DNA of 55,080 nucleotides from Bacteroidales bacterium (GTDB lineage: Bacteria; Bacteroidota; Bacteroidia; Bacteroidales; VadinHA17), in assembly GCA_003141415.1 (NCBI GenBank), contig PLLX01000048.1, positions 1-55,080 on the forward strand. Direction: 5' to 3'. Below, in pieces: positions 4,432 to 55,080 of the stretch; the stretch's first letter is position 1, and the number at the start of each line of letters is the position of its first letter. The notes below the pieces were generated by a model, which was given only the letters and a program-made list of their open reading frames with translations, did no database searches and had not been told where the DNA came from. The translations under genes and the position numbers were made by a program.

Positions 4432-5577
4432 ATGGCAGACCCATTAGAAAGATTTACAAAACCTCCCGTGGAGGCAAGTGATCAAAATACAGTAACGGTA
4501 GGGACGCCTCCTGCTACTGAAACACTAACACCGAGTACAGAAACAAGTACTCCGACAAACCAGACTGCACAGGCACAGCCGCAGACGCCAACACCAAAGT
4601 CAAAGCCTGACGAGTTCATTGAGAATTTTAATAAACGATTTTCTACTCCGTTTAAGAATGATGATGACATTAAGAACATCCTCGGACTTCAGCAAAAGAT
4701 AGTTGAATATGAGGGGAAGGCCAAACTTAGTGAATCGCAGACTAAAGAGATAGAAGATTACAAAAAGCAAATTGAGAATTTTAAGAACAGCACCAACGGT
4801 GCGGAGTTACTTGAAAAACCCCTATTAAGGAAGGCTTACATAGCTGACCAATTGCTCGCTAAGTACCCCGACAAAGACCCGTACACATTACAAGAGATAG
4901 TAATGAGTGACGTAAGTAAGATGTCGGACATTGATGTACTTGTAAAGGCACAGAAGATCAATCACCCCAACATTGCGGAGAATGATCTAAGAGCCGCCAT
5001 TTACAAGAAAAATGGTATCGACCCTGACATAAAACCAGAAGATTGGGATAGTGTCACAAGAGCCGAGCTTGCCATGAGTGCAGATGACGCAAGAGCAACA
5101 CTAAAAACTTTAACTTCTGGTATCGAGTTTCCAAAGGCGGCAACGAAAGAACAGAGGGATGCAGATGAGGTAATAGCCCTGCAAAAGAGAATACAGGCAA
5201 CGGATCCTCTAAAAGCAGAGTTCACCACATTTGATAAGTTTAAATCAGAGAAGGGGAAAATTGATTATGATGTTCCGGCTGATTTCAAAGCCAAACTCCC
5301 GGATATGTTTCAAGCGATGTTTGTAGATGCAGGACTTGATCCAACACCTGAGAATAAGGCAACGGCAATGGAGTTAAGAGATATGACTTTTCTTTACCAG
5401 AATATAGACAAGATAATCGAAGTTAAGGTTAAGGAGGGACAAACCGAAATCCAAAGGAAACTGGACGAGGCGCTCAATAACACCACGCCACCTAACACTA
5501 AAACAGCCACGGACGAAGGATCACCACAAGATAACCGCAGAGGATTGGGAGCGTTTCTTGAAGATATGAAACACTAA
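4432..5577 (+). CDS. Capsid scaffold protein (putative)
   Basis: 381 residues immediately upstream of the major capsid gene, which is the usual scaffold position. The N terminus (residues 1-60) is Pro/Thr/Gln-rich and low in complexity. The middle is charged and helical with coiled-coil character (LGLQQKIVEYEGKAKLSESQ, KEIEDYKKQIENFKN). The C terminus ends in a short basic-amphipathic segment (NRRGLGAFLEDMKH), the sort of helix through which scaffolds contact coat protein. High charge, low aromatic content and no enzyme motif fit. Function is inferred from composition and position. A combined scaffold/decoration role cannot be excluded. Confidence 0.7.
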   Translation: MADPLERFTKPPVEASDQNTVTVGTPPATETLTPSTETSTPTNQTAQAQPQTPTPKSKPDEFIENFNKRFSTPFKNDDDIKNILGLQQKIVEYEGKAKLSESQTKEIEDYKKQIENFKNSTNGAELLEKPLLRKAYIADQLLAKYPDKDPYTLQEIVMSDVSKMSDIDVLVKAQKINHPNIAENDLRAAIYKKNGIDPDIKPEDWDSVTRAELAMSADDARATLKTLTSGIEFPKAATKEQRDADEVIALQKRIQATDPLKAEFTTFDKFKSEKGKIDYDVPADFKAKLPDMFQAMFVDAGLDPTPENKATAMELRDMTFLYQNIDKIIEVKVKEGQTEIQRKLDEALNNTTPPNTKTATDEGSPQDNRRGLGAFLEDMKH

Positions 5578-5607
5578 TAATAACGACTTAAAAACTTTTA
5601 AAATAAA

Positions 5608-7077
5608 ATGTCAACAATTTCTTCACCCGCAGTATTAAGTAACACAATTAATACTGGTTATAGCACCGTATGGGCATCTCTGTATGATACAGACATGCTT
5701 GTACCGCAGATTTGGGGCGAGATCGTAAAACTTTACGGCCCCGGTATTGGACTACTTGAGTTCCTCTATATGGCAGGTTCTATCGTTCCTATTGCAGGGC
5801 CGACAAAGAAACTGTTTGAAGAACTTTCTCTCGTAAGACTTGTTACTACTGAAGGCGCATCTGGCGCAGTAGCCCCAGCAGCAGCATGGACTCTTCATCT
5901 TTCATTAGCAGACTTTAGTGGAACAACTGACAACGCTTATCTTTCAGTGAAGGATATCATTGTAGTTCCCGCTAAATACGTTACCAAAAACAGCGTAAAA
6001 GTTACCAAACCTTCATTGTGGCAGGTAACGGCTATAGATACAACCGATACAACTGGTAAGAGCTATACTCTTTATGGTCTTGACGCTCTTGACCGTATTA
6101 ATGTAACTATACCAACAGGAACTAAACTGATGGTTACTGGTGGAGCTTATGCCAATGGTGTACAGGGTGGAAGCCCCAAATCGTCAGGATGGCAGACAAG
6201 GCTTTTTTATTGCTCAACAAGACGTCAGAACTGGGCTATAATGGGTAGCCAACAGTCTAATCAGAGATACTACGAAACTCTTAGAGGTGGGGGAACTGGT
6301 ATTTTTACCAAGGCAACCATGGAATGCGACTTCTTACTGAGTAAGTATATTAATGATGACATTATGCTTGGTCAGCTTTTAACAGCCGCCACAGCCCTTA
6401 ATCAGACTGATAGGGACGGCAATAGTGTAAAACCTACTAATACTCTTGGTCTTATAGGACACCTTGTAGATGGTGGAATGAAACAGTACTACACCACTTC
6501 GTATCAGTACAGCGATTTTGACGATATCAAACCTCTCTTGCTCTCACAGGGTATCACTGGTAGAAACGTCAACTTCTTCATGGGTAGCGAACTCTACAAA
6601 CAACTTGAGAACTCCGGCTTAGACTTTAAAAAAGAATTTGCTGGCGGAACAACCTACGGAAACATAGGCGAGATTGACGCATCACTGAAGTTCATTCACA
6701 AGAACGGTGTGCAGACAACCTTCAAAGAGTTACCATCATTCAGTGACCCGACAGCTTATGGAGCAACAGCCTTCGATGATTACTTCACAGGCATGGGATT
6801 TATTTGTCCCGATGTTGATGTAACCGTCAGAGGAAGCATGGAAGAACCCGCAGCCTTCAAGATGAAAAACCTTGCACTCGGATACAAAAACTACAACGGC
6901 GAAAATAGAACTCGTATCAATAAAGTTCTTCCGGGTGTAGCAAACATAGGACAAGTTCCTAGTGACATTGCTGTTGACACCTACGACGATGTGCGCGGCG
7001 AGATGTTATCAGAATACGCATTGATAGTGTTGCACCGCAATCAGATGGTGCTCGTACAGTCTGACGCAATTCTATAG
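5608..7077 (+). CDS. Major capsid protein
   Basis: 489 residues, preceded by an A-rich leader ending AAAATAAAATG and followed by a terminator, as expected for the most highly expressed virion gene. It has the size and low-complexity-free alpha/beta composition of an HK97-fold coat protein, and follows the scaffold gene. Segments include a long N-terminal helix region (WASLYDTDMLVPQIWGEIVK), an E-loop-like extended region around residues 70-180 and a C-terminal part rich in beta strands. It resembles coat proteins of crAss-like and related Bacteroidetes phages. No protease gene is seen nearby, so maturation may not require cleavage by a dedicated protease. That last point is inference from absence. 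Confidence 0.85.
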   Translation: MSTISSPAVLSNTINTGYSTVWASLYDTDMLVPQIWGEIVKLYGPGIGLLEFLYMAGSIVPIAGPTKKLFEELSLVRLVTTEGASGAVAPAAAWTLHLSLADFSGTTDNAYLSVKDIIVVPAKYVTKNSVKVTKPSLWQVTAIDTTDTTGKSYTLYGLDALDRINVTIPTGTKLMVTGGAYANGVQGGSPKSSGWQTRLFYCSTRRQNWAIMGSQQSNQRYYETLRGGGTGIFTKATMECDFLLSKYINDDIMLGQLLTAATALNQTDRDGNSVKPTNTLGLIGHLVDGGMKQYYTTSYQYSDFDDIKPLLLSQGITGRNVNFFMGSELYKQLENSGLDFKKEFAGGTTYGNIGEIDASLKFIHKNGVQTTFKELPSFSDPTAYGATAFDDYFTGMGFICPDVDVTVRGSMEEPAAFKMKNLALGYKNYNGENRTRINKVLPGVANIGQVPSDIAVDTYDDVRGEMLSEYALIVLHRNQMVLVQSDAIL

Positions 7078-7251: not shown

Positions 7252-7992
7252 ATGGCACATAAAATTTGTACAAAATGTAAACAAGACAAAGAATTGTCTG
7301 AGTTTAATAAATGTAGCAGGGTTAAAGATGGACACAAGGCTGAGTGTCGGGATTGTCAGAAAAAAGGGAAGAAGGTCTATGACGATAATCATCCTAATCA
7401 CAATCACGATTATTATACTGAAAATACTGAAAAAATATTAAAGCAAAATAAAGAATGGGCAATAAACCATAGAGAACAATCTAATCAGATTAAAAATAAT
7501 TATGTAATAAGACATCCCAAGGAAAGACTTGAACAAAGTAACCGCTATTACCATAACAATACAGATAGGGTTAAAATATATGTTAATAATAATAGAGAGG
7601 AAATTAATAAAAAGAGAAGGATATACATGCAAACTCATCCACAAGCAAGAATGGCGCACAATCTCAGATCAAGGCTTGGTGCTGTATTGTCCGGGAGAAG
7701 TAAAGGTGGGCGATTATATTCACTTGTAGGATGTGATATGGATTACTTTAAAAACTATATTGAAAAGTTTTGGACGGAAGGAATGTTTTGGAGTAATTAC
7801 GGAAAAGATCATGGTAGGTGGAGTCTGGATCATACCATTCCACTTGAATCATTTGATTTAACAAACGAAGAAGAGCAAAAGGAAGCGTTCCATTATACCA
7901 ACATGAGACCGATGTGGTATCCTGAGAACTCATCAAAAGGCAGTCTTCATAATGGGAAACGACACAACAAGAAGAATAAGTATGAGTATTAA
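7252..7992 (+). CDS. Free-standing HNH homing endonuclease with N-terminal zinc finger
   Basis: 246 residues from the ATG at 7252. A longer TTG-initiated reading at 7129 would begin upstream of the promoter and is rejected. The N terminus carries two Cys pairs, C6/C9 and C32/C35, a zinc finger likely to aid DNA binding. The middle is rich in Lys, Asn and Tyr (helical spacer). The C terminus has the HNH core: D193-H194 followed by N217 and a WYPEN-SKG ending. Such enzymes cut intron- or HEG-less alleles to spread their own gene. The arrangement matches the second HNH at 13452, including shared FxTEGMxW, SFDL and N-SKG motifs, so the two are likely paralogues. The 3' end overlaps the next gene by 11 nt. 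Confidence 0.85.
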   Translation: MAHKICTKCKQDKELSEFNKCSRVKDGHKAECRDCQKKGKKVYDDNHPNHNHDYYTENTEKILKQNKEWAINHREQSNQIKNNYVIRHPKERLEQSNRYYHNNTDRVKIYVNNNREEINKKRRIYMQTHPQARMAHNLRSRLGAVLSGRSKGGRLYSLVGCDMDYFKNYIEKFWTEGMFWSNYGKDHGRWSLDHTIPLESFDLTNEEEQKEAFHYTNMRPMWYPENSSKGSLHNGKRHNKKNKYEY

Positions 7993-8665
7993 AGAACAAT
8001 ATTCCATAAAACCTATTCCTTTTGATGACTGTAAGGAATGGCTGCTCTATAAACATTATGCCCACCGAATGTGTCCTATTTCTTTTTCCTTTGGTCTTTT
8101 TGATATTAATAATATAATAATTGGTTGTTGTGTGTTTGGTGGTTCAGCCAACAGAAATAATGTAAGGATAGGCAATTTTGATGTATTAGAACTTAATAGG
8201 TTAGTCGTTAATGAAGGACTTAAGAAAAACGTGTTATCTTTTTTTGTGTCGCAATGTTTACGACAACTACCAATCCCATTAATTATAATTTCTTATGCAG
8301 ACCCCGGCAAGGGACATTACGGTTATATATATCAAGCCACAAACTGGTTATATTTTGGACAAGGGCAAAGGAAAGATGGTGGATGGGATTCAGGTGTAAC
8401 TTCATTTATTAAAGACAATAAAGAGTATCATGGAAAAACAGTTTCTACTCTTATTGGTTCGGCATCAAAAGAGGAGGCAGAAAAATACGGATTTACTCGG
8501 TTATTTTCTAAACCCAAACATAAATATATCTATTTATTAGGAACAAAACAAGATAAAAAACGTATGATGGCGGATATTCCTTATCATATTATGCCATATC
8601 CCAAAGGTGACAATATAAGATATGACACTAACTTCAAACTAACTACCCAAGGAATGTTATTTTAA
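7982..8665 (+). CDS. Mom-like DNA adenine-modification protein (GNAT-fold)
   Basis: 227 residues from the ATG at 7982. A start at 7952 would lengthen the overlap with the HNH gene. It carries the signature of the phage Mu Mom family: YKHYAHRMCPISFSFGLF at the N terminus, a GCCVFGG strand, LELNRLVVNEG, and SYADPGKGHYGYIYQATNW. In Mu, Mom converts adenine to N6-carbamoylmethyl-adenine and protects phage DNA from host restriction. H25, D107 and Y117 occupy positions plausibly equivalent to Mom residues reported as important. It is translationally linked to the HNH gene, unusual company for a late virion block. Chemistry in this phage (true momylation or another acyl transfer) is inferred from family only. 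Confidence 0.75.
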   Translation: MSIKEQYSIKPIPFDDCKEWLLYKHYAHRMCPISFSFGLFDINNIIIGCCVFGGSANRNNVRIGNFDVLELNRLVVNEGLKKNVLSFFVSQCLRQLPIPLIIISYADPGKGHYGYIYQATNWLYFGQGQRKDGGWDSGVTSFIKDNKEYHGKTVSTLIGSASKEEAEKYGFTRLFSKPKHKYIYLLGTKQDKKRMMADIPYHIMPYPKGDNIRYDTNFKLTTQGMLF

Positions 8666-9859: not shown

Positions 9860-9899
9860 AAATTCTGTTTCTGGTTTCCCTTCGGGGAAATTTCTTGTT

Positions 9900-9934
9900 C
9901 TTTGCCCCCTTACGTGTATCGGGGCAAAGTTTTT
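9900..9934 (+). terminator. Rho-independent terminator (preceded by a second hairpin)
   Basis: A perfect 9-bp stem CTTTGCCCC / GGGGCAAAG (9900-9908 with 9921-9929) is followed by TTTTT. Just upstream a tight hairpin TTTCCC-TTCG-GGGAAA (9885-9900) sits right after the stop codon region. Together they isolate the upstream gene from the small basic protein gene. Confidence 0.9.
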
Positions 9935-9942
9935 ATAAAATA

Positions 9943-9974
9943 GTTGGTGGATTCAAATATTTGACTTATCTTTG
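9943..9974 (+). promoter_or_regulatory. Bacteroidetes-type promoter (-33 and -7 elements)
   Basis: A GTTG element (9943-9946) and TATCTTTG (9967-9974) are separated by 20 nt, the same spacing seen at four other promoters in this window. It drives the small basic protein gene. Confidence 0.7.
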
Positions 9975-10009
9975 TTGTCACTATTCGACAGATAAGTATT
10001 AATAATTAA

Positions 10010-10050
10010 AAACGGAGGTCGCCATGAAGTAAAACCAATACTTCAGTTAA
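10010..10050 (+). promoter_or_regulatory. Leader with Shine-Dalgarno and two-codon ORF
   Basis: A rare clear Shine-Dalgarno sequence (GGAGG) stands ahead of ATG AAG TAA at 10024-10032, a Met-Lys-stop mini-ORF. The true gene ATG follows at 10051. AAGTATT (9994-10000) can pair with AATACTT (10038-10044), enclosing the Shine-Dalgarno site. This could tune translation, though it may also be incidental. Confidence 0.35.
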
Positions 10051-10191
10051 ATGGCAAAGAAAAAAGACGGTAAGGGCAAAGGGACAAAGAAATATGGTCG
10101 CAACAAACGCCCTGTAAATTCCGCAATGAGTTCTTACGTCAGAGGGAAAATAACCTTTGAGAGTTATCAAAAACAAAACAAGTCTACCTAG
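10051..10191 (+). CDS. Small, very basic phage protein (46 aa)
   Basis: 46 residues starting MAKKKDGKGKGTKKYGRNKR and ending at TAG (10189-10191), with about one third Lys/Arg. A KxGRNKR core like this recurs in short uncharacterised proteins of many phages. The gene is monocistronic, bounded by a terminator and own promoter upstream and another terminator downstream, which suggests high, separate expression. A nucleic-acid-binding or capsid-packaged role is plausible but unproven. Confidence 0.75.
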   Translation: MAKKKDGKGKGTKKYGRNKRPVNSAMSSYVRGKITFESYQKQNKST

Positions 10192-10219
10192 CCAATACCG
10201 CTTGTGTTAGTTGGCTCGT

Positions 10220-10250
10220 AAAAAGTCCTCGGTTTTGAACCGGGGCTTTT
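10220..10250 (+). terminator. Rho-independent terminator after small basic protein
   Basis: The stem CCTCGGTT / AACCGGGG closes a 3-nt loop and is flanked by AAAAG / CTTTT (10221-10250). A weaker hairpin AGCCAA / TTGGCT (10190-10216) precedes it. The rest of the gap up to 10304 holds only the next promoter. Confidence 0.8.
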
Positions 10251-10278
10251 GCATTTCAAGACATTCCTAAAATCTGAC

Positions 10279-10286
10279 TATCTTTG
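10279..10286 (+). promoter_or_regulatory. Bacteroidetes-type promoter for neck genes
   Basis: TATCTTTG lies 19 nt before the ATG at 10305 and begins a three-gene run of connector proteins. Confidence 0.65.
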
Positions 10287-10304
10287 TGAAAATAATCATA
10301 GAGC

Positions 10305-30776: not shown

Positions 30777-31238
30777 ATGGACAAATCGGTATTAACTTTA
30801 TTAAGAGAAAACGGGCATTACATTGTTGAAAATGACGTTTTTTCTGACAGGGAGGGGCGAAATTGGATATTGCATGGTATGTTGGGAAATAATAATTTCA
30901 CGCTTTCTTGTTTAGATGATACCTTATGGACGGAAGTTACCTTAAAGGAATTAAGAGAAAAATACACATTCAAATGCGATGCACTTGTTATTTTAAATTC
31001 TCCCGAAATTCAAGGGAATCTTTCACGGGCTAATCCTATAAGGAATCTTCCAATATATATTGAACATCTAAAAGAACCATCTATTGTGGCACAAATATTG
31101 GATGATTTAAAGGCTGAAATGCAGAAAGATTCTCCGTGGATAGAAGAAGAGGCAATAGATGATTTTTTAAAAACATACGGAGATGGTTTTGTGAAATTTG
31201 CGGCACTTTATAATGGACATGACCCCGCAAAGAATTAG
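30777..31238 (+). CDS. Hypothetical protein
   Basis: 153 residues, 29 nt after the zinc-ribbon gene and probably in the same transcript. The N-terminal half is alpha/beta (KSVLTLLRENGHYIVENDVF; LDDTLWTEVTLKELREKY) and the C-terminal third is acidic and helical (VAQILDDLKAEMQKDSPWIE). No family is recognised. It is the last gene before the structured RNA. Confidence 0.5.
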   Translation: MDKSVLTLLRENGHYIVENDVFSDREGRNWILHGMLGNNNFTLSCLDDTLWTEVTLKELREKYTFKCDALVILNSPEIQGNLSRANPIRNLPIYIEHLKEPSIVAQILDDLKAEMQKDSPWIEEEAIDDFLKTYGDGFVKFAALYNGHDPAKN

Positions 31239-31268
31239 TGATATTAAAACGCTTTAAATAAAAAGACT

Positions 31269-31276
31269 TATCTTTG
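31269..31276 (+). promoter_or_regulatory. Bacteroidetes-type promoter for structured ncRNA
   Basis: TATCTTTG lies 30 nt after the preceding stop. No sensible coding frame follows until 31742, so the transcript it drives begins with the folded non-coding region. Confidence 0.6.
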
Positions 31277-31700
31277 CACCGGAAAATTAATCCTATGCGA
31301 GATAATTTGACACATAATCAAATAAAGATACTGGACTCCGTAGAGAGTTGTGTTGCGTTCTATTCGCATAGGATTCTATCAACCAACTTGACACGGAGTT
31401 CTTATGACTTATTCTCTCCGATTGCTAATTTCATTTAGCAAAATCAAAGCAACGTAGTGGTTTATGGGATACCCAATGCGAAAAGAAGCTGTGTGACAGC
31501 CTTGAATGAAAGACAATAGCATTGGGATGGAGTATAAAAGCGGTAGTCGTTGACAACAGGAGGGGAAACAAGTCCGCACTGGATTAATAAGAAACAACAG
31601 TTAAGGGGTACTCTCTTAAACCACAGTCTTCGGAAGCACCAAGAGAAGGGCATCTCTACATTCAAGGGATTTCATTCTTCTTTTGTGCTATTTAAAGGTT
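31277..31700 (+). ncRNA. Large structured non-coding RNA with H-type pseudoknot
   Basis: No plausible gene lies between 31238 and 31742 on either strand, yet the + strand is dense in long complementary pairs. P1 is a perfect 12-bp helix, AATCCTATGCGA (31289-31300) with 31364-31375. P2 is GGACTCCGT plus AGTTG (31333-31350) with CAACT plus ACGGAGTTC (31384-31401). P1's 3' strand lies in P2's loop, so the two form a pseudoknot without sharing bases. Further on are a 7-bp hairpin TTGCTAA/TTAGCAA (31422-31441), CCCAATGC/GCATTGGG (31472-31526) enclosing GCTGT/ACAGC, and a hairpin from TTAAGGGG. A 13-bp stem with one bulged C (31635-31648 with 31677-31689) encloses AGAGA/TCTCT. It has its own promoter and no T-tract terminator. 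It matches no RNA family I can name. Confidence 0.7.
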
Positions 31701-31713
31701 TGCCAAAAGTGAC

Positions 31714-31721
31714 TATCTTTG
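31714..31721 (+). promoter_or_regulatory. Bacteroidetes-type promoter for the giant internal protein
   Basis: TATCTTTG lies 20 nt before the ATG at 31742 and just after the last helix of the structured RNA. Confidence 0.65.
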
Positions 31722-31741
31722 TAATCTATTAATAATCCTTC

Positions 31742-34700
31742 ATGGAAGATAAAACACAACAACTATTTAATCTTTTAAATGAGTCTAAGGATTTCAAGGG
31801 TGCATTCAAAACCCCTGAAGAGTTAACCGCTACACTTTCTGATGAAACTAAGGTTGGTGCGTTATATTCATTGCTTAACGAGAGTGCTGATTTCAAAGGA
31901 GCATTTAATTCAATAGATGAGTTTAAAACATCATTTGATATAAAAAAAAAAGTTTCTTCACAAGATGCGCTCACTTCTGCTTCGGGCAAAGAGGAACTTC
32001 CTTTATTAGATCAGTTAGGGCAAAAGCCACAGGATTCCTTAACTCAACCATCACAGTCAACATCGGCTGAACCTGTTCAAAAAACAGAAGCGTTCACGTT
32101 CCCTGAACAAGCACCAATAATTGAACAACCAAGGGATGCCACTAATGTTAATATAGTACAAAGGACATCTTTGCCTACACCTCCCGAAACAGTAATGCGC
32201 CAAGGTAGAGGTCTTAAACCAGAAAATTTAGGGGAATATATTAAAGCCTTTGGTGGAACTCTTAACAGAGCCTTTGAAGAAGTACCCAAACTTGCCGATT
32301 GGATTCAGTCGACTGCTAATGATGCTGTTCTACAAACTGTATATGGATTACCCGTGGCACAACAAGCACAGAAATTAAGAGCAGCAGGATTTGATTATTC
32401 TACTGCATTATCAACCGATCCAATGCAGCGTCCATTTGGCATGATAGCTGATCTTCTTGAGGGTTGGACAGACAAAACCGTTGGGAAACTTGTATTACCA
32501 CAAGGTAAGGAAAAGGGTGGTGTTATTGGTGACATAGCAACGGGTACGGCAAATGTATTACCCGATATTGCCTACGCATCAGTCCTTGCAACAGCAATGC
32601 CAGAGGTATTGGCGTTAAAAGCCATAGAGATGGCAACAGGAATAAACCTTGCGAGCAACTTTGGATTTGAACAGGGAATCAAAACTGCCGTAAGTAAATC
32701 TCAACAATTTGAAAATGGCGGTAATCTACAAAAGGTTCTTGCACCCGCAGTTGGGATGATAGAGGGTTATGCCCAAGGGTATTTCTTTGCGAATATGAGT
32801 ACGAAAGGCAATGAGATAGGAAAGTCCATTGCCGATCAGGTTATGCCCAAAGTGACTACTGAAAGTCAGGCAATAAACAAAGCCATAATCCAAACAGGGG
32901 GGGCTACTGTAAGTACAGCAGGCATGTTTGGTGGATGGGGAGTACTTGATGAGTATAGAAGAACTGGGCAAGTTTCAGAGGATACTTTCTTATCCAACGC
33001 AGGACAGGGAATGGTGTTTGGTACAAAAGACCCATTAAGAATGTTGCTTTCTAAAGGTGTGATGGCTTTTGTGGGCGCACCAAGACAGATGATTAATGAT
33101 ATAGCCAAGAGCGATATCCCCGCAGAAGAACACGCTAAAAACGCACATGAAAAGTTTGATGCCGTAGCCAATGGAACATCAGCCAATCCCGAATCAGACC
33201 TTGCATCAGGTAAATTATCAATAAACACAGCCATTTTAAAGGCTACTACAGAGCAGGTTTTAAATAATAAGGATGGGTTAATTTTAGCAGTAAAATCATC
33301 TACTTTTGAAACAAAAATTAAGGATGCTATTATTGATAAAATTAATGCTATTGATGCCGACAATGACACTAAAATACAGGCTACAAAAGATATTACTGAT
33401 AAAATCTCTAAGATTGATGATGCATTAAGTAATATAAGTGGTAATAATTCATGGGATGATGTCAGGAAAGAGGTTGAGTCAGCCCCGCTAAAGGAAAGAA
33501 AAGAAGAACTCAAACAGGACGCTAAAAAAGTCTACGGTATTGAGCCTAAAGAACAGCCAAAAGGGGAAGATGGAAAGGTTAAGGAAAAACCGAAGGCAGT
33601 ACAGACAGAATCGTCACAGAAATTTTTAGATGACCTTGATAATTATAAGTTGGGTGACAAAACCTTCAAAAGTAAAGAAGACCTTACTAATTGGTTAGAT
33701 AAAAACTACAATGAGAACGACAGGTTTAGTTCTGTCAACGAAGAAGGTTATCTTGAACCTAATACCATGAAAGTCTTTAACGAGTGGTATAAGGGTAATA
33801 AAGATAGGCTCGCTAAAGAAGAAATGGATCGCATAGATAAAGAAAACCAAATTAATACACAGGAGGGAACACAAAATGCCAGTGAAAATAGAACATCAGA
33901 TAGCCAACTCCCTGACCAAGGCACATCCGAATTGGAGCAAGGAAAAGGTAATGTCGACAATGTGGGCAACAATGAACAAAAAGGGACTACTCAAGAAGAA
34001 GTAAAACCAGTTGAAAATTCTATGTCTGATTCTAAGGATATCCCAAAAGGGGTCGAAGAACAGGTAAAGGAATACAAGAAACCCGGAGAGCTTCAAAAAG
34101 GATGGGAAGAAGCATTGCCCAATGTTCCTAAAAAAGAAATTGGCACATTAGACGATGGACGTAAAGTATCTATCGTTAATGGTACTGAAATGCGCAACAA
34201 GGTTTATACTAATTTCACGGAAGGGGGTAATTCTCATGCTTATCCGTGGATGAATAAGGGCGATCTTTTTATCGAAGACGTGGAAAGTGGTGAGGATAAG
34301 GTAGCTGATCTTATTCATGAGGCAGAAGAAGACAGGGCTATGGATAAGCTTGGCATCTCTTACGATAAGGCACATGAAGAATATGGATTGCCTGCTGAAC
34401 GAGAATATCGGGATACAGGAAAAATCCCTGATTATCTTAAGCCAATAGCAGAATTATTATTAAAAGAACCTGCCGAACCCCTACAACAGCAGGAAAATGT
34501 CCCACGGGAGGGTACTATACCCCCAAAAGGCGAAGGAACTCTTCTAAAAGGTACAGAAGTACCACCGGAACAAATACCCCCTACCGAGCCGCCTATACGG
34601 GGGACAGTGGGTAATCAGGATAACCAACGGGAAAAGGGATTACTTAATAGGATTAAAAAAGCTAAGAATTTCAAGGAATTTGGTAAGGAAATAGAGGAAA

Positions 34701-37700
34701 AAGGATTAACATACGAGCAAATACCAAATAATGCCACGGCAGCACAGGTAGATGCCATGATTGCATCAAGAGGATTAAGACAATCCGAGGCAGATATCCG
34801 TAATGAGTCACTTAATATCCCGGACAGGATACGCTCAATGGGTGCTGTGCAAATACTTGACAAGTACAGGGAATTGGCACGGGACTCCAAAGATGATGTC
34901 GAAAAACAAGACTACATAAAACGAGCAGTTGATTTAGCTGATTGGGTTGATAAAGCGGGACGTAATTGGGGACAAGCTATACAGGCACTTGCCTCCGAAA
35001 GAGTAAATAATATTCTTACTCCTGATATGCAACTGCTAAAGGCTAAAAAGATGGTAGACAGTATGCGTCAAAAATTGCTTGATAAAAATGCTGATGACAT
35101 TGCCACCAAGGGTCAGCAGATGAAAGACATTAATAATAATGTTGTAGATCAGGTAATAAATTCTAAAGAATATCAGGACTTAAAGGATAGGGTTGCGGAA
35201 CTTGAAAAGAAAGTTGCGGAACAAAAGGCAAACCAGCCCAAATACAAAGCACGAATAAAACAAATACAGGCAGATCGTGCAAAAGAATGGGATGCATTCT
35301 TTAAAAGTTCACAGACTTCTGTATCGGCTATCGGATTAAGTTCAGAACAAATAGAACACCTTGGTAATATCTTGTCGCTATACGCACAGGAAGGGATTAC
35401 AAGAGCAGAAGAAATACTCGATAGGTTTAAAAGGGAATATCTTGAGAAATCAGGGCAAGAACTTGATGATGATAAGGCAAAAGCATGGATAGCAGCGGCA
35501 CAAAAAAGAAATGAAGAAGGTGGAGTAACAGCAGATGAACTTGATAATTATGTTGAAGCAAGGGAGAAAGGAAAACAAATTGACCAAATCGTCAAAGACC
35601 ACTATACTAAACCTGATAAATCAGGAAGAAGTTTAAAAGAAAAACTTATTGAGGATGGAGGGTTAAAAGATGCAGATGCACAGAAGATAGCAGATAAAGC
35701 AGCGAAGAAATTCAAAGACCTTGCTACTCCTGAGAAGAAGAAAATATTAAAAGGGAAAAACAGCCTTGTAAATAAGATAATAGAACTCACTAATGCGGGA
35801 GCATGGGAAGATTCTGATCTAACAGATGCTTATGCAAGGGCTTTTGGTTGGCCAAAACTGACAGATGAAAATATTAAAGAGATAACCAGATTGGCCGAAT
35901 TGGCAGACAAAGCACCCAAAGGAGAACAGAAAAATAAAGCGATACAAGCATTGCTCGCCTATCAATCGGCACACATCAAGGGAATTGATTTAGGTGATAT
36001 AGGTAATGCCCTTTGGTATGCCTCCGCTCTTTCTGGTCCACATACGCATACGAAGAAAATGTCATCTGAATTACAAACAGTAGGACTCGAGACAATAGTA
36101 ACTTCTTTGTATCATGCAAATCATCCCGGAGATATTCCCCATTTATTTTCAGCACTTCTGCGTGGATGGGGTGCTGGATATCAAAAAGCACTTGATGTAT
36201 TAAAAACGGGGTATAACCCAATGAATAAGGAAGAAACCCCCGCTCTTCTTGAAATGGTTGATTCCCCGATAGCTAAAGTTGCCAGATATGTACAACGTAT
36301 GTTCGTAGCAGTACAGCAGTTTAATGCAGGGCCATCAAGAGAGATACGTGCTACTGAACTAGCTGTAGCAAAAGCGAGGGCAGAGAGACCCAGCGCAACA
36401 GAACCAGATAAAACTGATTGGGGGCGTGCATGGGATATATTGGCAAAGACACCCGAACAAAGGGTACAGTTTGAGCAACAGGCACAAAGTGAAGGATTAA
36501 AAGGGAGAGATTATAAACGTAGGGTGTGGGAGTTAATGGAACAGAATCGCCCCGATGATATAATGGAAAAAGCAGAAGCGTATTCTTTAAGAACTACATA
36601 TATGGGACCACCCGAAGGACTCCTCGGTATGTTTGCTCACAAGATAGGACAAATGACTACTGCGGCTAGTGGAACTATACCAATACCATTTACCAAAAAA
36701 GAATATACACTCTATCCATTAAAGAGGATAGTTCCTTTCACCCGAGTATTGGCGAATCTTGGAAATCAGATGCTCGATTATTTTCCGCCTACGGGGCTTG
36801 CTCGTGCTGGCATTGGAAGCATGGGGGTATCTGGAATGAATAAATATCAATTTTCTAAGGGATATTACCGCAAATATACTCCTGAAGAAAGAGGAAAAGA
36901 AGCCATGAAAGGGTTAATCGGGATGGCAACTATTGCCGGTATATGGGGGTTAACACAATTAAAAGATAAAGATGACAAACCATTCGTAGAAATAACTGCC
37001 AATGGCTATGGGAAGGGTGATCCACGCAATGATGAATTAAAAAGACTTGGGTGGCAACCATTTTCATTAAGAGTCGGTGATCGTTGGTTTAGCTGGCAAC
37101 ATTCTCCTCTTGCATTAGCTATCGGCCCGTTGGGTTATTTTGATGATCTTTCAAAATATCACAAAGACGAGTCAGTAGATGATAAGTTTGCAATGAAGGT
37201 GGTAAAATGTTATGGAAATTCTATGACTACTATTTTTTCTGCTCCTTACATAGAGGGCCTTAATAACTTTTTTGCAGCTATCGGATCAGGTGATCCTAAT
37301 AAAACGGGAACATATATTTCCAGGTTAGCCTCGTCAATGGGTAAAAGTGTTGTCTATCCTAAATTAATAGAACAGACAGTACAGACTATTGATAATCTAT
37401 CGAAAACAACAGAAAAGACGTCATCGGCTTGGGATGCACAGATAATTAGAAACATGCCAGTGGCAAGAAATAAACTTAATGCGCTTTATAATTCTTGGGG
37501 AGATGAAGTGAAGACGCCCCCTGTCTTTGGTATAACGAAGGTCGAACATGATCCTTTCTATGAATATCTTGTTAAAAATAATCTTAATTTAGCCGCACCC
37601 CGTCAGAAAGAGCCACATTACGATGATACTAAGGGTATTCTACGTCCGATGACTGATGATGAGTATGCCGATTTTATCCACAAAAGCGGGCAGGTTATCA

Positions 37701-38236
37701 AACAAAGGGTACAAAGTGAGGTTATTGACAAAAAGTTACCACAGGATGAAGCCGAAAAAGTTAAAAATAATATTTCAGGAGATGAAAGAAATAAATATAT
37801 AACAGAATTATTCGGCTGGGGACAGTTAAGGCAAACTCATCCCGACGATTGGAAGGTAATGAAGGATAATGGGGCATTACAGATACCCCCCACGTCTGAA
37901 CATCTCAAGGTAGGAAAAGAAAAAGTAACCATTGCCACAGAAGACAAGATTCCGTCAAAAGAACTTGAAACATTTAGAAATGCTGCGATGGAAGAATATC
38001 GCAAGAAAGTCATGCCGTATCTTCAGGATGCCGATAGAGTAAAAGCCGATAAAAACAAGCCTGCTAAATATGAAACGGGTGAACAAAAGGGTAAAATCAT
38101 GACAGATGAATATAATAATCCCATAATTAAATTTAACAATAAAATAAAAGGATTATGGGCAGATGCTCTTGCAAAAGCCAAAGATCAAACCGAAACAATA
38201 TTAAAGCAAGAGAAAAATACAACAACTCAAAAGTAA
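31742..38236 (+). CDS. Giant internal/ejected virion protein (2164 aa) with LPD38-like region
   Basis: Residues 7-65 hold two repeats, LFNLLNESKDFKGAFKTPEE and LYSLLNESADFKGAFNSIDE, of the kind that also starts the transglycosylase at 2964. Residues about 600-1000 are Gln/Glu/Pro/Lys-rich and probably disordered. Around 1413-1750 a region (NALWYASALSGPHTHTKK; YPLKRIVPFTRVLANLGNQM) resembles the large polyvalent-protein domain LPD38 and the inner-core proteins of podoviruses. A hydrophobic segment GLIGMATIAGIWGLTQL (about 1723) could insert in the membrane. Such proteins are stored in the capsid and injected ahead of DNA. No RNA polymerase DxDxD motif is seen, unlike the giant crAss virion polymerases. 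It has its own promoter. Confidence 0.65.
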   Translation: MEDKTQQLFNLLNESKDFKGAFKTPEELTATLSDETKVGALYSLLNESADFKGAFNSIDEFKTSFDIKKKVSSQDALTSASGKEELPLLDQLGQKPQDSLTQPSQSTSAEPVQKTEAFTFPEQAPIIEQPRDATNVNIVQRTSLPTPPETVMRQGRGLKPENLGEYIKAFGGTLNRAFEEVPKLADWIQSTANDAVLQTVYGLPVAQQAQKLRAAGFDYSTALSTDPMQRPFGMIADLLEGWTDKTVGKLVLPQGKEKGGVIGDIATGTANVLPDIAYASVLATAMPEVLALKAIEMATGINLASNFGFEQGIKTAVSKSQQFENGGNLQKVLAPAVGMIEGYAQGYFFANMSTKGNEIGKSIADQVMPKVTTESQAINKAIIQTGGATVSTAGMFGGWGVLDEYRRTGQVSEDTFLSNAGQGMVFGTKDPLRMLLSKGVMAFVGAPRQMINDIAKSDIPAEEHAKNAHEKFDAVANGTSANPESDLASGKLSINTAILKATTEQVLNNKDGLILAVKSSTFETKIKDAIIDKINAIDADNDTKIQATKDITDKISKIDDALSNISGNNSWDDVRKEVESAPLKERKEELKQDAKKVYGIEPKEQPKGEDGKVKEKPKAVQTESSQKFLDDLDNYKLGDKTFKSKEDLTNWLDKNYNENDRFSSVNEEGYLEPNTMKVFNEWYKGNKDRLAKEEMDRIDKENQINTQEGTQNASENRTSDSQLPDQGTSELEQGKGNVDNVGNNEQKGTTQEEVKPVENSMSDSKDIPKGVEEQVKEYKKPGELQKGWEEALPNVPKKEIGTLDDGRKVSIVNGTEMRNKVYTNFTEGGNSHAYPWMNKGDLFIEDVESGEDKVADLIHEAEEDRAMDKLGISYDKAHEEYGLPAEREYRDTGKIPDYLKPIAELLLKEPAEPLQQQENVPREGTIPPKGEGTLLKGTEVPPEQIPPTEPPIRGTVGNQDNQREKGLLNRIKKAKNFKEFGKEIEEKGLTYEQIPNNATAAQVDAMIASRGLRQSEADIRNESLNIPDRIRSMGAVQILDKYRELARDSKDDVEKQDYIKRAVDLADWVDKAGRNWGQAIQALASERVNNILTPDMQLLKAKKMVDSMRQKLLDKNADDIATKGQQMKDINNNVVDQVINSKEYQDLKDRVAELEKKVAEQKANQPKYKARIKQIQADRAKEWDAFFKSSQTSVSAIGLSSEQIEHLGNILSLYAQEGITRAEEILDRFKREYLEKSGQELDDDKAKAWIAAAQKRNEEGGVTADELDNYVEAREKGKQIDQIVKDHYTKPDKSGRSLKEKLIEDGGLKDADAQKIADKAAKKFKDLATPEKKKILKGKNSLVNKIIELTNAGAWEDSDLTDAYARAFGWPKLTDENIKEITRLAELADKAPKGEQKNKAIQALLAYQSAHIKGIDLGDIGNALWYASALSGPHTHTKKMSSELQTVGLETIVTSLYHANHPGDIPHLFSALLRGWGAGYQKALDVLKTGYNPMNKEETPALLEMVDSPIAKVARYVQRMFVAVQQFNAGPSREIRATELAVAKARAERPSATEPDKTDWGRAWDILAKTPEQRVQFEQQAQSEGLKGRDYKRRVWELMEQNRPDDIMEKAEAYSLRTTYMGPPEGLLGMFAHKIGQMTTAASGTIPIPFTKKEYTLYPLKRIVPFTRVLANLGNQMLDYFPPTGLARAGIGSMGVSGMNKYQFSKGYYRKYTPEERGKEAMKGLIGMATIAGIWGLTQLKDKDDKPFVEITANGYGKGDPRNDELKRLGWQPFSLRVGDRWFSWQHSPLALAIGPLGYFDDLSKYHKDESVDDKFAMKVVKCYGNSMTTIFSAPYIEGLNNFFAAIGSGDPNKTGTYISRLASSMGKSVVYPKLIEQTVQTIDNLSKTTEKTSSAWDAQIIRNMPVARNKLNALYNSWGDEVKTPPVFGITKVEHDPFYEYLVKNNLNLAAPRQKEPHYDDTKGILRPMTDDEYADFIHKSGQVIKQRVQSEVIDKKLPQDEAEKVKNNISGDERNKYITELFGWGQLRQTHPDDWKVMKDNGALQIPPTSEHLKVGKEKVTIATEDKIPSKELETFRNAAMEEYRKKVMPYLQDADRVKADKNKPAKYETGEQKGKIMTDEYNNPIIKFNNKIKGLWADALAKAKDQTETILKQEKNTTTQK

Positions 38237-38266: not shown

Positions 38267-38683
38267 ATGGCAGTACTATTAACAAACACAGGAAGTCCGC
38301 TTCCATTATGGTTTCGGGATATCCTTTCATATTCAAGCATAGGAACAGTAGCCATAGACCCGGTAGCTACTTATCAGGCAAGTGCCAAAGCAACATCTAA
38401 CCTATCTTTGATGAATGAGTATGTGGCTCATGGCTTTGGCGTAAAGAACGCCACAGACACCGCAGCTTATATCTTTGCTATTACCCTTGCACAGTACGAA
38501 AGTTACGTCACGCAAAACAGAGGCATATTACCTGCAAACTATGTTCTAACTGGTATTACCCCAAGACAGATTCATCTTGCAGCAGGGGAGTGGTGTTTGA
38601 CTCCAATCGTAAAGGTTTTCGCAGGTAACGCTGGTGGTGGATTTGCAAGCACAGTTACGGTTGTAAATGTCGGGCTTATATGA
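38267..38683 (+). CDS. Structural protein (putative)
   Basis: 138 residues. MAVLLTNTGSPLPLWFRDIL opens a protein with alternating helical and beta segments (ATYQASAKATSNLSLMNEYV; IFAITLAQYESYVTQNRGIL) and a glycine-rich C terminus. Its own promoter, A-rich leader and place at the head of a fibre block suggest a well-expressed virion part. No family is recognised. The stop overlaps the ATG of the endonuclease gene (ATGA). Confidence 0.55.
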   Translation: MAVLLTNTGSPLPLWFRDILSYSSIGTVAIDPVATYQASAKATSNLSLMNEYVAHGFGVKNATDTAAYIFAITLAQYESYVTQNRGILPANYVLTGITPRQIHLAAGEWCLTPIVKVFAGNAGGGFASTVTVVNVGLI

Positions 38684-39285
38684 ATCGAGTAGGTGTATAT
38701 CAAATTAGTTCCATTTGTAAGTCTAATAGGATGTATATTGGAAGTTCGGTGAATATACAGAAACGGTGGTTAATGCACCTATCACAGTTAAGGATTAATA
38801 AACACCACTCTGTTAAACTCCAACGTCATTATAATAAATACGGAGAAGAAGATTTATTTTTCTCTATATTATACCAAACAAGAAAGGAAGACGTTCTTTT
38901 AATGGAGCAAGTATTACTGGATATACACAAACCTTATTTCAATAATAGTTATGTGGCGGGCAGTCCACGAGGATGTAAAAGAAGTAAGAAAACAATAGAG
39001 AAGCACAGAAAACAAATTATTGGTAAGCCATCTTGGAACAAGGGTATTCCCATGAGTGAAGAGACCAAAAGAAAAGATAGTGAATCTCATATTGGTAAAA
39101 TTCCGTGGATGAAAGGGAAACATCATAAGGCGGAATCAAATCAAAAGAATAGGGATGGCCACCTTGGTAAAAAACATTCTGATTCTACTATTAATAAATT
39201 AAAGGAGCGCATTCCTTGGAATAAGGGACTTAAAAAGAAGAAAGGTGCAATAGGCGTGATTAGTAAAAACAATTTAATACTTTAA
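38680..39285 (+). CDS. GIY-YIG homing endonuclease with NUMOD3 repeats
   Basis: 201 residues. The GIY-YIG core is G5-V6-Y7 and Y19-I20-G21, with R29 as the likely catalytic arginine and E (about 76) further on. Residues about 100-190 contain several NUMOD3-type DNA-binding repeats (SKKTIEKHRKQIIGKPSWNK; MSEETKRKDSESHIGK). It overlaps the upstream gene by 4 nt and lies between two structural genes, so it spreads as a free-standing homing gene. No intron boundary was found around it. Confidence 0.85.
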   Translation: MNRVGVYQISSICKSNRMYIGSSVNIQKRWLMHLSQLRINKHHSVKLQRHYNKYGEEDLFFSILYQTRKEDVLLMEQVLLDIHKPYFNNSYVAGSPRGCKRSKKTIEKHRKQIIGKPSWNKGIPMSEETKRKDSESHIGKIPWMKGKHHKAESNQKNRDGHLGKKHSDSTINKLKERIPWNKGLKKKKGAIGVISKNNLIL

Positions 39286-48632: not shown

Positions 48633-49544
48633 ATGAAAACATTTGATGAAATTATTCCCTCATTCCTTTCCAATATAAAAATAAAGGTAAAAGAAAGGAC
48701 ATATAAATCTTATCTTGGAAAAATTAATATCTTTAGTCGGTGGTTAGCTTTGTACGGATTTAGCGACACCCCCTTGGCTAAAATTGATGAACAGATAATT
48801 GAGCAGTTCTCCATCTATCTTGCTGATGAGAAGAAATTAGATCGCCCAACATGTCATAAATATTGCAACAATATAAGACAGGTGTTCCAATACGCAATGA
48901 CAAGAGGTGAGATAATAAAACTTCCATTTGATCTCTTTGTGTTGCCACAAAAAAAGGCAGACATGGGCGCACAAGTCATTGAGAAAGAACACATGCGTAC
49001 CCTGTTAACAGAAATTAAAAAGAAAGATAAGCAACTCTATGTGGCCTGTCTGATGGAATATTATTGTTTTACCAGGCCGGGGAGAGAACTACGACTCCTG
49101 AAAGTAAAAGACATTGATACTATCAATTGGACAATAAAAGTAGATGCCGACCACGCTAAGAACGGACACAAAAGAATAGTTACTGTCCCAAATGAGCTTA
49201 TAACTGTTCTTAAAGAATATGGCATAGAAAAGGCAGATAAAGACTTATTTATCTTTGGGAAGCATAAAAATACAGACACCGTTCCTTGCAGCATTAACGT
49301 GCTCCGTTATCGGTTTAATAAGTATAGGGATAAATTTGGAATGCCTAAAGAGTATAAGTTCTACAGTTTTAAAGCGACAGGAGCTACTTCTTTACATAAT
49401 ACCAACATGGTCTCCTTACGGTCTATTATGACACAATTGGGGCATCTTAATTTATCATCTACTCAGTATTATATACAAAAACACGCAGGAATTATTGACA
49501 CAGTAATAAGAGATAATTTCCCCAACCCTATGCGTATAAACTAA
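48633..49544 (+). CDS. Tyrosine recombinase/integrase, variant active site
   Basis: 303 residues with an N-terminal SAM-like core-binding region (residues 1-110) and a C-terminal catalytic domain. Box I arginine fits R151 in FTRPGRELRLLKVKDID, the beta-strand lysine K176 in HAKNGHKR, box III histidine H271 in LGHLNLSSTQ, and the nucleophile Y280. The usual HxxR of box II is replaced by YSFK (Y244-K247), followed by ATGAT rather than HTxA. It starts 4 nt after the FISUMP lipoprotein gene. It could integrate the phage, resolve multimers or act as an invertase. The variant box II means catalytic competence cannot be assumed. Confidence 0.8.
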   Translation: MKTFDEIIPSFLSNIKIKVKERTYKSYLGKINIFSRWLALYGFSDTPLAKIDEQIIEQFSIYLADEKKLDRPTCHKYCNNIRQVFQYAMTRGEIIKLPFDLFVLPQKKADMGAQVIEKEHMRTLLTEIKKKDKQLYVACLMEYYCFTRPGRELRLLKVKDIDTINWTIKVDADHAKNGHKRIVTVPNELITVLKEYGIEKADKDLFIFGKHKNTDTVPCSINVLRYRFNKYRDKFGMPKEYKFYSFKATGATSLHNTNMVSLRSIMTQLGHLNLSSTQYYIQKHAGIIDTVIRDNFPNPMRIN

Positions 49545-49579
49545 AAATACTATCTTTGTGGAGGATAGTCAGATTTTAG
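49541..49579. terminator. Hairpin at convergent gene ends
   Basis: CTAAAA and TTTTAG (49541-49546, 49574-49579) flank an inner perfect stem ACTATC / GATAGT (49549-49554, 49564-49569). The hairpin spans the stop codons of the integrase (+) and the first - strand gene, as expected for a bidirectional terminator. TATCTTTG at 49551 is part of it, so that copy is not called a promoter. Confidence 0.5.
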
Positions 49580-50114
49580 GAATTGCCTTTTGCCAGAGTT
49601 TGGCTACCTGACCTTCCATAGAATTAATGGCAGTTTTATAACCCTGAACTCCTTTTTGATTATCTTTAAAATCTTCTAGTTTCAAACTTAAATCAAGTAG
49701 TTTGATGTATAATCGGTAATCGAGTTTGCCATCAGTGCTAAAATAGGCTTTATAGAGCCTCCGTAGAGTCTCTGAGACACTATCTACCCTCTTTTGGGAC
49801 ATCAGTATGGTTAGCGTCTTGTCTTCAACAAAATGCCTTATATTAGATATCGCCTCATCTTCGCCTTTGTAGAAATAAAGTTCGTCTATCGTGTATGCCC
49901 GACCAAGCCTTTTATAATAACGCTTAACGTTAGCATCATAAACACAGTAGTACGTATATAAAAAATAAATAAGATTATCTTTGATAAGTGTTGTGGTACG
50001 ACCCCTTAGTTCAAACAGCTGAAGGACTGACCAACATGGTATCGGGGTGTAGTCGGGTTTGAAATCATCTAATGCATCTGCCCAAATCATATCGTCTTGC
50101 TCGGTGTGAATCAT
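49569..50114 (-). CDS. Hypothetical protein, last gene of early operon
   Basis: 181 residues, helical throughout (LIYFLYTYYCVYDANVKRYY; TLRRLYKAYFSTDGKLDYRL; YIKLLDLSLKLEDFKDNQKG). Its 5' end overlaps the stop of the nuclease gene at 50111 by 4 nt. The all-helical form and size would fit a small DNA-binding or terminase-small-subunit-like protein, but no motif supports that, so it remains hypothetical. Confidence 0.55.
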   Translation of the reverse strand: MIHTEQDDMIWADALDDFKPDYTPIPCWSVLQLFELRGRTTTLIKDNLIYFLYTYYCVYDANVKRYYKRLGRAYTIDELYFYKGEDEAISNIRHFVEDKTLTILMSQKRVDSVSETLRRLYKAYFSTDGKLDYRLYIKLLDLSLKLEDFKDNQKGVQGYKTAINSMEGQVAKLWQKAIPKI

Positions 50115-54194: not shown

Positions 54195-55080
54195 TTAAGT
54201 TCTAAAATCAAATGAATATTCTTCTGTCTTAAAAAGGCTTAATGATGCGGCAGCTTCTTTTGCATTTATATGATGAGGTTCACAAGCAATAAGATAATCT
54301 GATCCTGTTGATGGACAAATAAATTTAACCCACGCAAAGGGGTTGTTGCCTATTTCGGGAAAAGATTCTTTTGTCTTATAAAGTTTTACTATCTCAATAT
54401 CCTCATTTGCATGTTGGATAACTTGTTTGTCTACTTCTGATGCACCAAGTAATTCCATAATCTTCCTTTCCCCAAGCACTGTATAAATTCCCCCCCGTAT
54501 TTCTTCATTTTTTTCAGATAGAAATTTTTCTTTTGTTATTTCGTCTTTCTTTTCCCAAATCCATGATGGTAAAATACGTCCATGAATAGCGTAAATAGAA
54601 TACCCGTCCTTAAAAGTTACCGCAGCTTTATTCATATTATGTAAACGGTTATTAATATCCTGATAAATTTCAACCGGGCCTGAAGAAACGAATATAATTT
54701 TTTTAAAGGCCACAAAATCATAAATTCCTGATTTTAAAAAATCTTGAATGTTTACAAAATCACTCCAATCAAATTTGAAGTAATTGAGTTGTTTAAAGTA
54801 ATCATAAAAGGCTACCCATCCAAAATCAGAAAGATTACAATAGCAAGAAAAAGATTCATAGGAAAATTTGTTAGCCCAAATGTTAGCCCGAATGTTAGCC
54901 CGAAGGTTAGCCTCAATGTTAGCCCGAAGGTTATCCACAATGTTAGCCTCAATGTTAGCCCAAATGTTATCCCAAATGTTAGCCTCAATGTTAGCCCGAA
55001 GGTTAGCCACAATGTTAGCCCCAATGTTATCCCAAATGTTAGCCCCAATGTTAGCCACAATGTTAGCCCCAATGTTAGCC
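54195..55080 (-). CDS. DUF6745-like protein with 4-residue N-terminal repeats (5' end outside window)
   Basis: At least 295 residues. The frame stays open to the right edge, so the true start lies beyond 55080; the GTG at 55058 is only one in-frame candidate. The N terminus is a run of four-residue units, mostly xANI or xANL (e.g. ANIEANIWDNIWANIEANIV), encoded by a 12-bp tandem repeat. The rest has the DUF6745 pattern: GPVEIYQDINNRLHN, AVTFKDGYSIYAIHGRILP, and ICPSTGSDYLIACEPHHINA. Proteins of this kind with similar tetrad repeats are known in other bacteria and their function is not established. It is next to the cupin-like gene. Confidence 0.65.
   Translation of the reverse strand, partial: ANIGANIVANIGANIWDNIGANIVANLRANIEANIWDNIWANIEANIVDNLRANIEANLRANIRANIWANKFSYESFSCYCNLSDFGWVAFYDYFKQLNYFKFDWSDFVNIQDFLKSGIYDFVAFKKIIFVSSGPVEIYQDINNRLHNMNKAAVTFKDGYSIYAIHGRILPSWIWEKKDEITKEKFLSEKNEEIRGGIYTVLGERKIMELLGASEVDKQVIQHANEDIEIVKLYKTKESFPEIGNNPFAWVKFICPSTGSDYLIACEPHHINAKEAAASLSLFKTEEYSFDFRT
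54868..55080. repeat. 12-bp tandem repeat, continuing past the window
   Basis: About 17 copies of a 12-nt unit close to AATGTTAGCCCC are present, varying mainly in the middle of the unit (AATGTTATCCCA, AAGGTTAGCCTC) and running off the right edge. On the - strand it encodes the tetrad repeat of the DUF6745-like protein. Because the unit is a multiple of 3, another frame on the same strand is also open over the whole array. Confidence 0.9.

Follow-up and report, generated by a model that had tools for sequence, protein, structure and literature searches.

What is encoded in some 500 nucleotides (nt) that separate two virion genes of a bacterial virus, and does this stretch serve the gene beside it? 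We consider this question for a window of 55,080 nt (the whole stretch analysed, contig PLLX01000048.1 of assembly GCA_003141415.1, filed as a Bacteroidales bacterium), which is DNA of a virus of Bacteroidota. The gap, at 31239-31741, lies between a frame of 153 amino acids (aa; 30777-31238) and the gene of a giant protein of 2164 aa (31742-38236), and the longest frames wholly within it come to 60 aa on the plus strand (31550-31732, with a TTG start) and 67 aa on the minus strand. An earlier note on the sequence had described the gap as gene-free and as the source of a large structured RNA; no known gene was found in 31239-31741, and the part at 31277-31700 folds at -119 kcal/mol (z -4.08), with none of 100 shuffled sequences as good. 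We think it likely, with appreciable room for doubt, that this unit is a stand-alone and relocatable noncoding RNA gene of the phage, locked at its 5′ end in a pseudoknot and probably acting in trans.

The unit of the window is called W below, and its homologous copies are L, in phage G294, and A and B, both in phage G314. The features on which the argument leans are these:

31269-31276, plus strand: promoter -7 box TATCTTTG of the RNA unit, read in the sequence; TA[TC]CTTTG stands at the start of W, L, A and B
31277-31700, plus strand: RNA unit W, about 400 nt, with approximate ends; fold z as above; homologues L, A and B
31289-31301, plus strand: 5′ strand of helix P1, containing the ATG at 31295-31297; predicted helix with covariation
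31333-31355, plus strand: 5′ strands of helix P2, 9+6+4 base pairs (bp); covariation for the outer two helices
31363-31375, plus strand: 3′ strand of P1, within the apical loop of P2; predicted helix with covariation
31380-31401, plus strand: 3′ strands of P2; covariation for the outer two helices
31714-31721, plus strand: promoter -7 box TATCTTTG of the giant gene, marking the end of the unit

An interlocked pseudoknot at the 5′ end

The earlier note had drawn P1 and P2 as an H-type pseudoknot. P1 is present where it was placed and gains a thirteenth pair (G-U), giving 31289-31301/31363-31375, while the coordinates of P2 hold and its pairing is redrawn as 9+6 bp around a small internal loop (31333-31341/31393-31401 and 31345-31350/31384-31389), extended by an inner helix of 4 bp (31352-31355/31380-31383). 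These inner pairs are retained in L; A and B are without that register. P1 and P2 share no base, as the proposed interlock has it, and P1 is the top-scoring helix in each unit taken alone (13 bp in W, 10 in L, 15 in A and 13 in B). A pairing of the minimum-free-energy structure that competes with P1, 31286-31293/31581-31588, was set aside, as only 5/8 of its pairs are retained in L.

Both helices covary across the homologues, and on this count the structured RNA proposed earlier stands. Across the four members both sides of P1 have changed at 12 of the 13 pairs and 96.2% of 52 cells are paired, with none of 500 shuffles matching either the double-change count or the paired fraction and slid controls pairing at 30-42%. 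For P2, aligned by MAFFT with the inner 4 bp left out, 98% of 51 cells are paired (3/500 shuffles as high; slid controls 31-53%) and double changes occur at 5/13 pairs (10/500 shuffles as high); further pair types are no more numerous than in shuffles (371/500). At MAFFT positions P1 pairs from W to L at 12/13 (p 0.0034), and P2 from A to B at 8/8 (p 0.006) and from W to L at 8/9 (p 0.08). Folded alone, the 5′ domains reach z values of -2.15 (W), -1.31 (L), -2.67 (A) and -4.83 (B). The hairpin loop of P2 pairs outside its hairpin and both helices covary, as expected of an H-type pseudoknot, and the prediction that the 5′ ~130 nt form an interlocked P1/P2 pseudoknot in all four copies is supported by comparison.

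A promoter before the unit and another for the giant protein had also been suggested, and TATCTTTG boxes do stand at both places; the window has 25 such boxes where shuffles have 3.1. The -7 consensus of the Bacteroidota sigma factor sigma-ABfr is TAnnTTTG (PMC7366714), and all four members carry TAnnTTTG at -7, as part of a putative host-type promoter. No TTTG was seen by eye at the canonical -33 distance for W; in Flavobacterium johnsoniae the -33 motif was likewise not identified (PMC7366714). Downstream, a TATCTTTG box follows W, A and B, and a weaker TATATTTA follows L.

Copies of the unit and their genomic settings

The portal protein of the window virus shares 21-24% identity with portals of Flavobacterium, Tenacibaculum and Maribacter phages and of one further phage (among the matches listed, 40 of 72 records). 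Closer phages came from terminase searches, namely G294 (86 kb, 71% identity), G313 (77 kb, 53%) and G314 (82.6 kb, 46%), whose records are possibly fragments. Copy L was found in a search of 19 records (G294 7849-8003, minus strand; 70% identity to W, expectation value (E) 8.5e-10), in which 11 of the 19 records had some match at E ≤ 1 and the runner-up record reached E 0.003 over 20 nt. A profile of W and L run over 16 records gave both A (G314 60572-60797, plus strand; E 7.3e-10) and B (G314 12458-12338, minus strand; E 1.1e-5). Over the unit, W and L are 56% identical and A and B 62%.

IMG/VR contig 3300037087_000181, which bears the same giant gene, matches a 371-nt part of W at 100% identity, the unit there lying around 61293-61720; the further copies are in 3300037461_001229 and 3300044712_000499. 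Among 50,697 phage records, a nucleotide search gave one 35-nt match for W at E 0.5 and none for L, A or B. Motif scans of IMG/VR and genome contigs returned the two phages then known, plus other matches; three of these extra matches were inspected and judged chance by eye, and 32 from one IMG/VR scan had neither TATAAAAGC nor CAGTTAAGG nearby. As both motifs are common to W and L only, the scans could not find A or B. A model, R1, had a match at E ≤ 1 in 12 of 46 records, those below 0.05 being only the three phages; in 393 relatives and 395 phylum genomes, under stricter filters, it matched the window's own genome only, and in G313 it found no unit.

The four copies occupy three genomic settings, and their comparison shows that the unit has changed place. 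W lies ahead of the giant gene; A and L have the same setting, among small genes and flanked by homologues of window gene 49569-50114 and of G294 5335-6381; and B has the portal block on one side and a homologue of window gene 4432-5577 on the other. The earlier note had offered a leader for the giant gene as one possible role. As a conserved role this falls, because the homologues have other genes next to them and, in G294, the giant gene (3218 aa) begins 5 nt after its neighbour with no RNA ahead; linkage of the unit to the giant gene is not conserved. In two of the three annotated phage records inspected the preceding gene ends 27 or 32 nt before the giant gene, and in Panino a 189-nt minus-strand frame lies ahead of the presumed giant gene. 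Relatives of the giant protein, searched by pattern, were the same virus only in IMG/VR and none in genome contigs.

Further units of the same build were found with a descriptor (TAnnTTTG box, P1 and interlocked P2) that was written with W, L, A and B already known, that scores W at 51 and that yields 3 matches of at least 49 in 7.4 Mb of shuffled sequence. In five records it gave 6 matches of at least 49, against 0.15 expected, which make five units (D has two boxes), and 14 of at least 42, against 2.2 expected, so that its weak matches include chance; L scores only 42. The new finds are C (G314, box end 28272, minus strand, with a perfect P1 of 15 bp), D (G294, box end 34600, minus strand) and F (the distant phage G295, 37040, plus strand), with E added by looser settings. 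C and D are homologous over about 400 nt (L179:8280-7834 and L116:14608-14152, both minus strand), have GACGGGTG..CACCCAGAG in common within their 3′ parts and show double changes at 3/8 P2 pairs and at 4/10 pairs of a 3′ helix. Neither was listed by a profile of W, L, A and B at E ≤ 10, and the two make up a second subfamily with the 5′ architecture of W. E lies on the window phage's own contig (L003:394-535) and is a shorter knot, its long P1 interlocked with P2, that leads a gene directly; this gene has a DUF1376 match in Pfam (E 2.1e-5, 25.2 bits), under the curated cut-off of 30.1.

What the unit may be

If the unit is an RNA gene in its own right, a host-type TAnnTTTG promoter would start a transcript of about 400 nt, in which the P2 hairpin would form first and its apical loop would then capture the transcript's 5′ end as P1 (12-15 bp), locking that end in the H-type pseudoknot. 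P1 starts 12 nt past the promoter box in W, which would leave the 5′ end hidden once the P2 loop has been made. The second domain, with P3, would come next, and the unit would stop ahead of the next gene's own promoter. We infer that the unit is transcribed and stable and that it acts in trans. The RNA may be long-lived through its hidden 5′ end, and trans action, by binding a protein or another RNA, is most likely since whole units lie beside unrelated genes and up to three diverged units occur per genome.

Several observations weigh against this reading. The family has four members, in three phages only, and the whole of copy L folds no better than shuffles (z -0.59). The P1 strands for the four-member covariation test were matched by hand, at MAFFT positions P1 pairs from A to B at only 11/15 (p 0.05), and a competing pairing, 31347-31356/31449-31458, is retained at 10/10 pairs in L with no double change. 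In the 3′ half of W and L the MAFFT-anchored helix test is mostly not significant, and no terminator was recognised in a scan confined to W. This reading gives no account of the ATG frame that stands open in each of the four copies, and a shorter knot of the same build, unit E, leads a real gene.

Because of unit E, a cis-acting leader is retained as a rival, in which the knot would be an attenuator or translation switch for the downstream gene and the long units would be long leaders. The same-build knot stands directly before the DUF1376-like gene in the window's own phage, and with no terminator recognised in W, read-through into the next gene is possible. The leader of T4 gene 32 is an H-type pseudoknot leader of a phage mRNA, and W is like it in having such a knot at the 5′ end of a putative phage transcript; here, however, an ATG lies within P1, which has 12-15 bp, and no single gene goes with the unit throughout. 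Since the downstream genes vary among members, have promoter boxes of their own behind W, A and B (a weak one behind L), and in the case of the G294 giant gene have no such leader, we consider this rival unlikely, albeit the strongest of those weighed here. The ATG invites another explanation, a messenger for a short peptide whose translation P1 would control. It lies inside P1 in each copy, 18-20 nt past the box (window 31295; equivalents L115:7977, L181:598 and L178:12479), and opens frames of 47, 48, 72 and 93 codons, with lengths against shuffles at p 0.06 (L), 0.007 (A) and 0.001 (B). Yet the codon phase is shared by only 30-88% of aligned columns across the six member pairs, in-phase mismatches pooled over these pairs spread evenly across the first, second and third codon position (72/182, 66/182 and 74/186), and CTGATTATATCGAG, common to A and B, stands in different frames in the two. 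The four peptides had no match in Pfam and one PHROG match at E 0.14; tblastn against phages, run with the B peptide only, gave a best E of 6. With the codon phase lost and mismatches even over codon positions, sequence comparison indicates that the unit encodes no conserved protein; the conserved coding frame with biased changes that the earlier note had named as the contrary outcome was not found, there being no third-position bias, and we hold the peptide improbable.

The earlier note could not match W to the phage RNAs GOLLD and ROOL, and a search of Rfam had the same outcome, with no match for W at gathering thresholds and two chance-like ones (E 1.6-1.7) when E ≤ 10 was allowed; group I and II introns, transfer-messenger RNA and RNase P were dropped for lack of an Rfam match. 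The ROOL covariance model had no match in the window at its gathering threshold and none at E ≤ 10 in 31200-31800, and with the GOLLD model W had no match and copy A reached 10.1 bits, the cut-off being 150. ROOL and GOLLD are phage RNAs without known function, often by islands of transfer RNA (tRNA) genes, that form RNA-only cages, with a ROOL example of 659 nt and many GOLLD members over 800 nt (PMC12286853). W is like both in being a large structured phage RNA, and like ROOL in its pseudoknots, but differs from both in having no Rfam match and from ROOL in being shorter (about 400 nt) and without a tRNA island: no tRNA was found in the window or in G314, and scanning of part of the contig of the window phage gave one tRNA-Met. 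An oligomer-forming scaffold RNA of this sort (cage or capsid-associated), akin by function if not by descent, would suit a large, pseudoknotted, phage-borne RNA with a candidate loop-loop pairing, but given the differences in match, length and tRNA neighbourhood it seems to us a distant prospect. A functionless chance fold or repeat artefact would agree with the ordinary folding energy of L and the small number of members; it is contradicted by the covariation of P1 and P2 and by the same architecture at unrelated loci, and we give it almost no credence.

The stand-alone RNA gene that we favour belongs to the large structured phage RNAs, a known kind, and looks like an undescribed family; in open-access literature, surveyed by titles and opening lines, no such RNA was described for Bacteroidota phages. 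More tentatively, and at somewhat short of even confidence, we propose a new class of promoter-driven units of ~350-420 nt, each with a 5′ pseudoknot cap whose P1 has 12-15 bp, occurring as 1-3 diverged paralogues per genome in a Bacteroidota phage family. These would be self-contained modules that move between loci and fall into at least two subfamilies with a common capped 5′ domain and differing 3′ domains. As the shorter form also leads the DUF1376-like gene, the knot may stabilise the 5′ ends of these phages' RNAs in general, as a cap, which would be a bacterial virus's route to decay-resistant RNA. Large structured phage RNAs known so far are few. The unit adds to them a family, in Bacteroidota phages, whose anatomy is clear and testable, marked by a covarying pseudoknot predicted to lock the 5′ end, by several paralogues per genome and by change of place.

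The searches for tRNAs and known RNAs also recorded features elsewhere in the related phages. G294 has a cluster of 21 tRNA genes (ARAGORN; L117:7039-9536), at a distance of about 39 kb from copy L on that record, and G313 has a similar one. Rfam ribozymes were matched in G313 (twister-P3, L175:1760-1840, minus strand, 59.2 bits) and in G294 (twister-sister, L116:11006-11072, minus strand, 44.7 bits).

The 3′ domain and neighbouring features

Behind the knot, W has a second domain, with helices P3 and P4, that is less certain than P1/P2:

31412-31419, plus strand: 5′ strand of P3, predicted; hand-matched strands with 1 double change in L and 2 in A
31457-31464, plus strand: 5′ strand of the long-range helix P4, GTGGTTTA; hand-matched to L
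31472-31526, plus strand: predicted stem-loop CCCAATGC..GCATTGGG, with an inner hairpin GCTGT..ACAGC
31500-31508, plus strand: candidate kissing strand CCTTGAATG, pairing with 31659-31667; 9 bp in W, 7 bp in L
31530-31548, plus strand: GAGTATAAAAGCGGTAGTC, conserved in W and L only
31559-31566, plus strand: 3′ strand of P3, predicted; hand-matched in L and A
31597-31608, plus strand: ACAGTTAAGGGG, conserved in W and L only
31617-31624, plus strand: 3′ strand of P4, TAAACCAC; hand-matched to L
31635-31689, plus strand: 3′ stem-loop of W, a high-probability prediction with no comparative support

The 8-bp and 7-bp helices of the earlier note are found here, at 31472-31479/31519-31526 and, as a hairpin, at 31422-31428/31435-31441. 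Helices matched by hand in this domain are weaker evidence than the MAFFT-anchored test, and the two are given side by side. P3 was not recovered automatically in B, where 5/7 pairs form. By hand, P4 shows 4 double changes in 8 pairs between W and L, with one bulged A omitted, and the automatic test of W and L did not recover it (5/8, p 0.74). The stem-loop at 31472-31526, hand-matched in L, has double changes at 2/5 and 3/5 pairs (automatic test 6/8, p 0.40), and the candidate loop-loop pair 31500-31508/31659-31667 has 1 double change by hand (automatic test 5/9, p 0.85). Between A and B, all seven pairs of a 7-bp helix are replaced on both sides, from GCGACCT/AGGTCGC to CAACTTC/GAAGTTG; the pairing by itself has p 0.02. 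GGGTTAT/ATAACCC likewise remains paired in both.

Elsewhere the window holds genes of a Mom-like DNA modification protein (7952-8665), a GIY-YIG homing endonuclease (38680-39285) and a tyrosine integrase (48633-49544), and at its edge (54833-55080) a 12-nt unit is arrayed in tandem inside a minus-strand frame. In a further gap of 445 nt (9860-10304) there is a TATCTTTG box and, at 10051-10191, a small basic frame, which has a homologue in G313, there too behind a hairpin leader.
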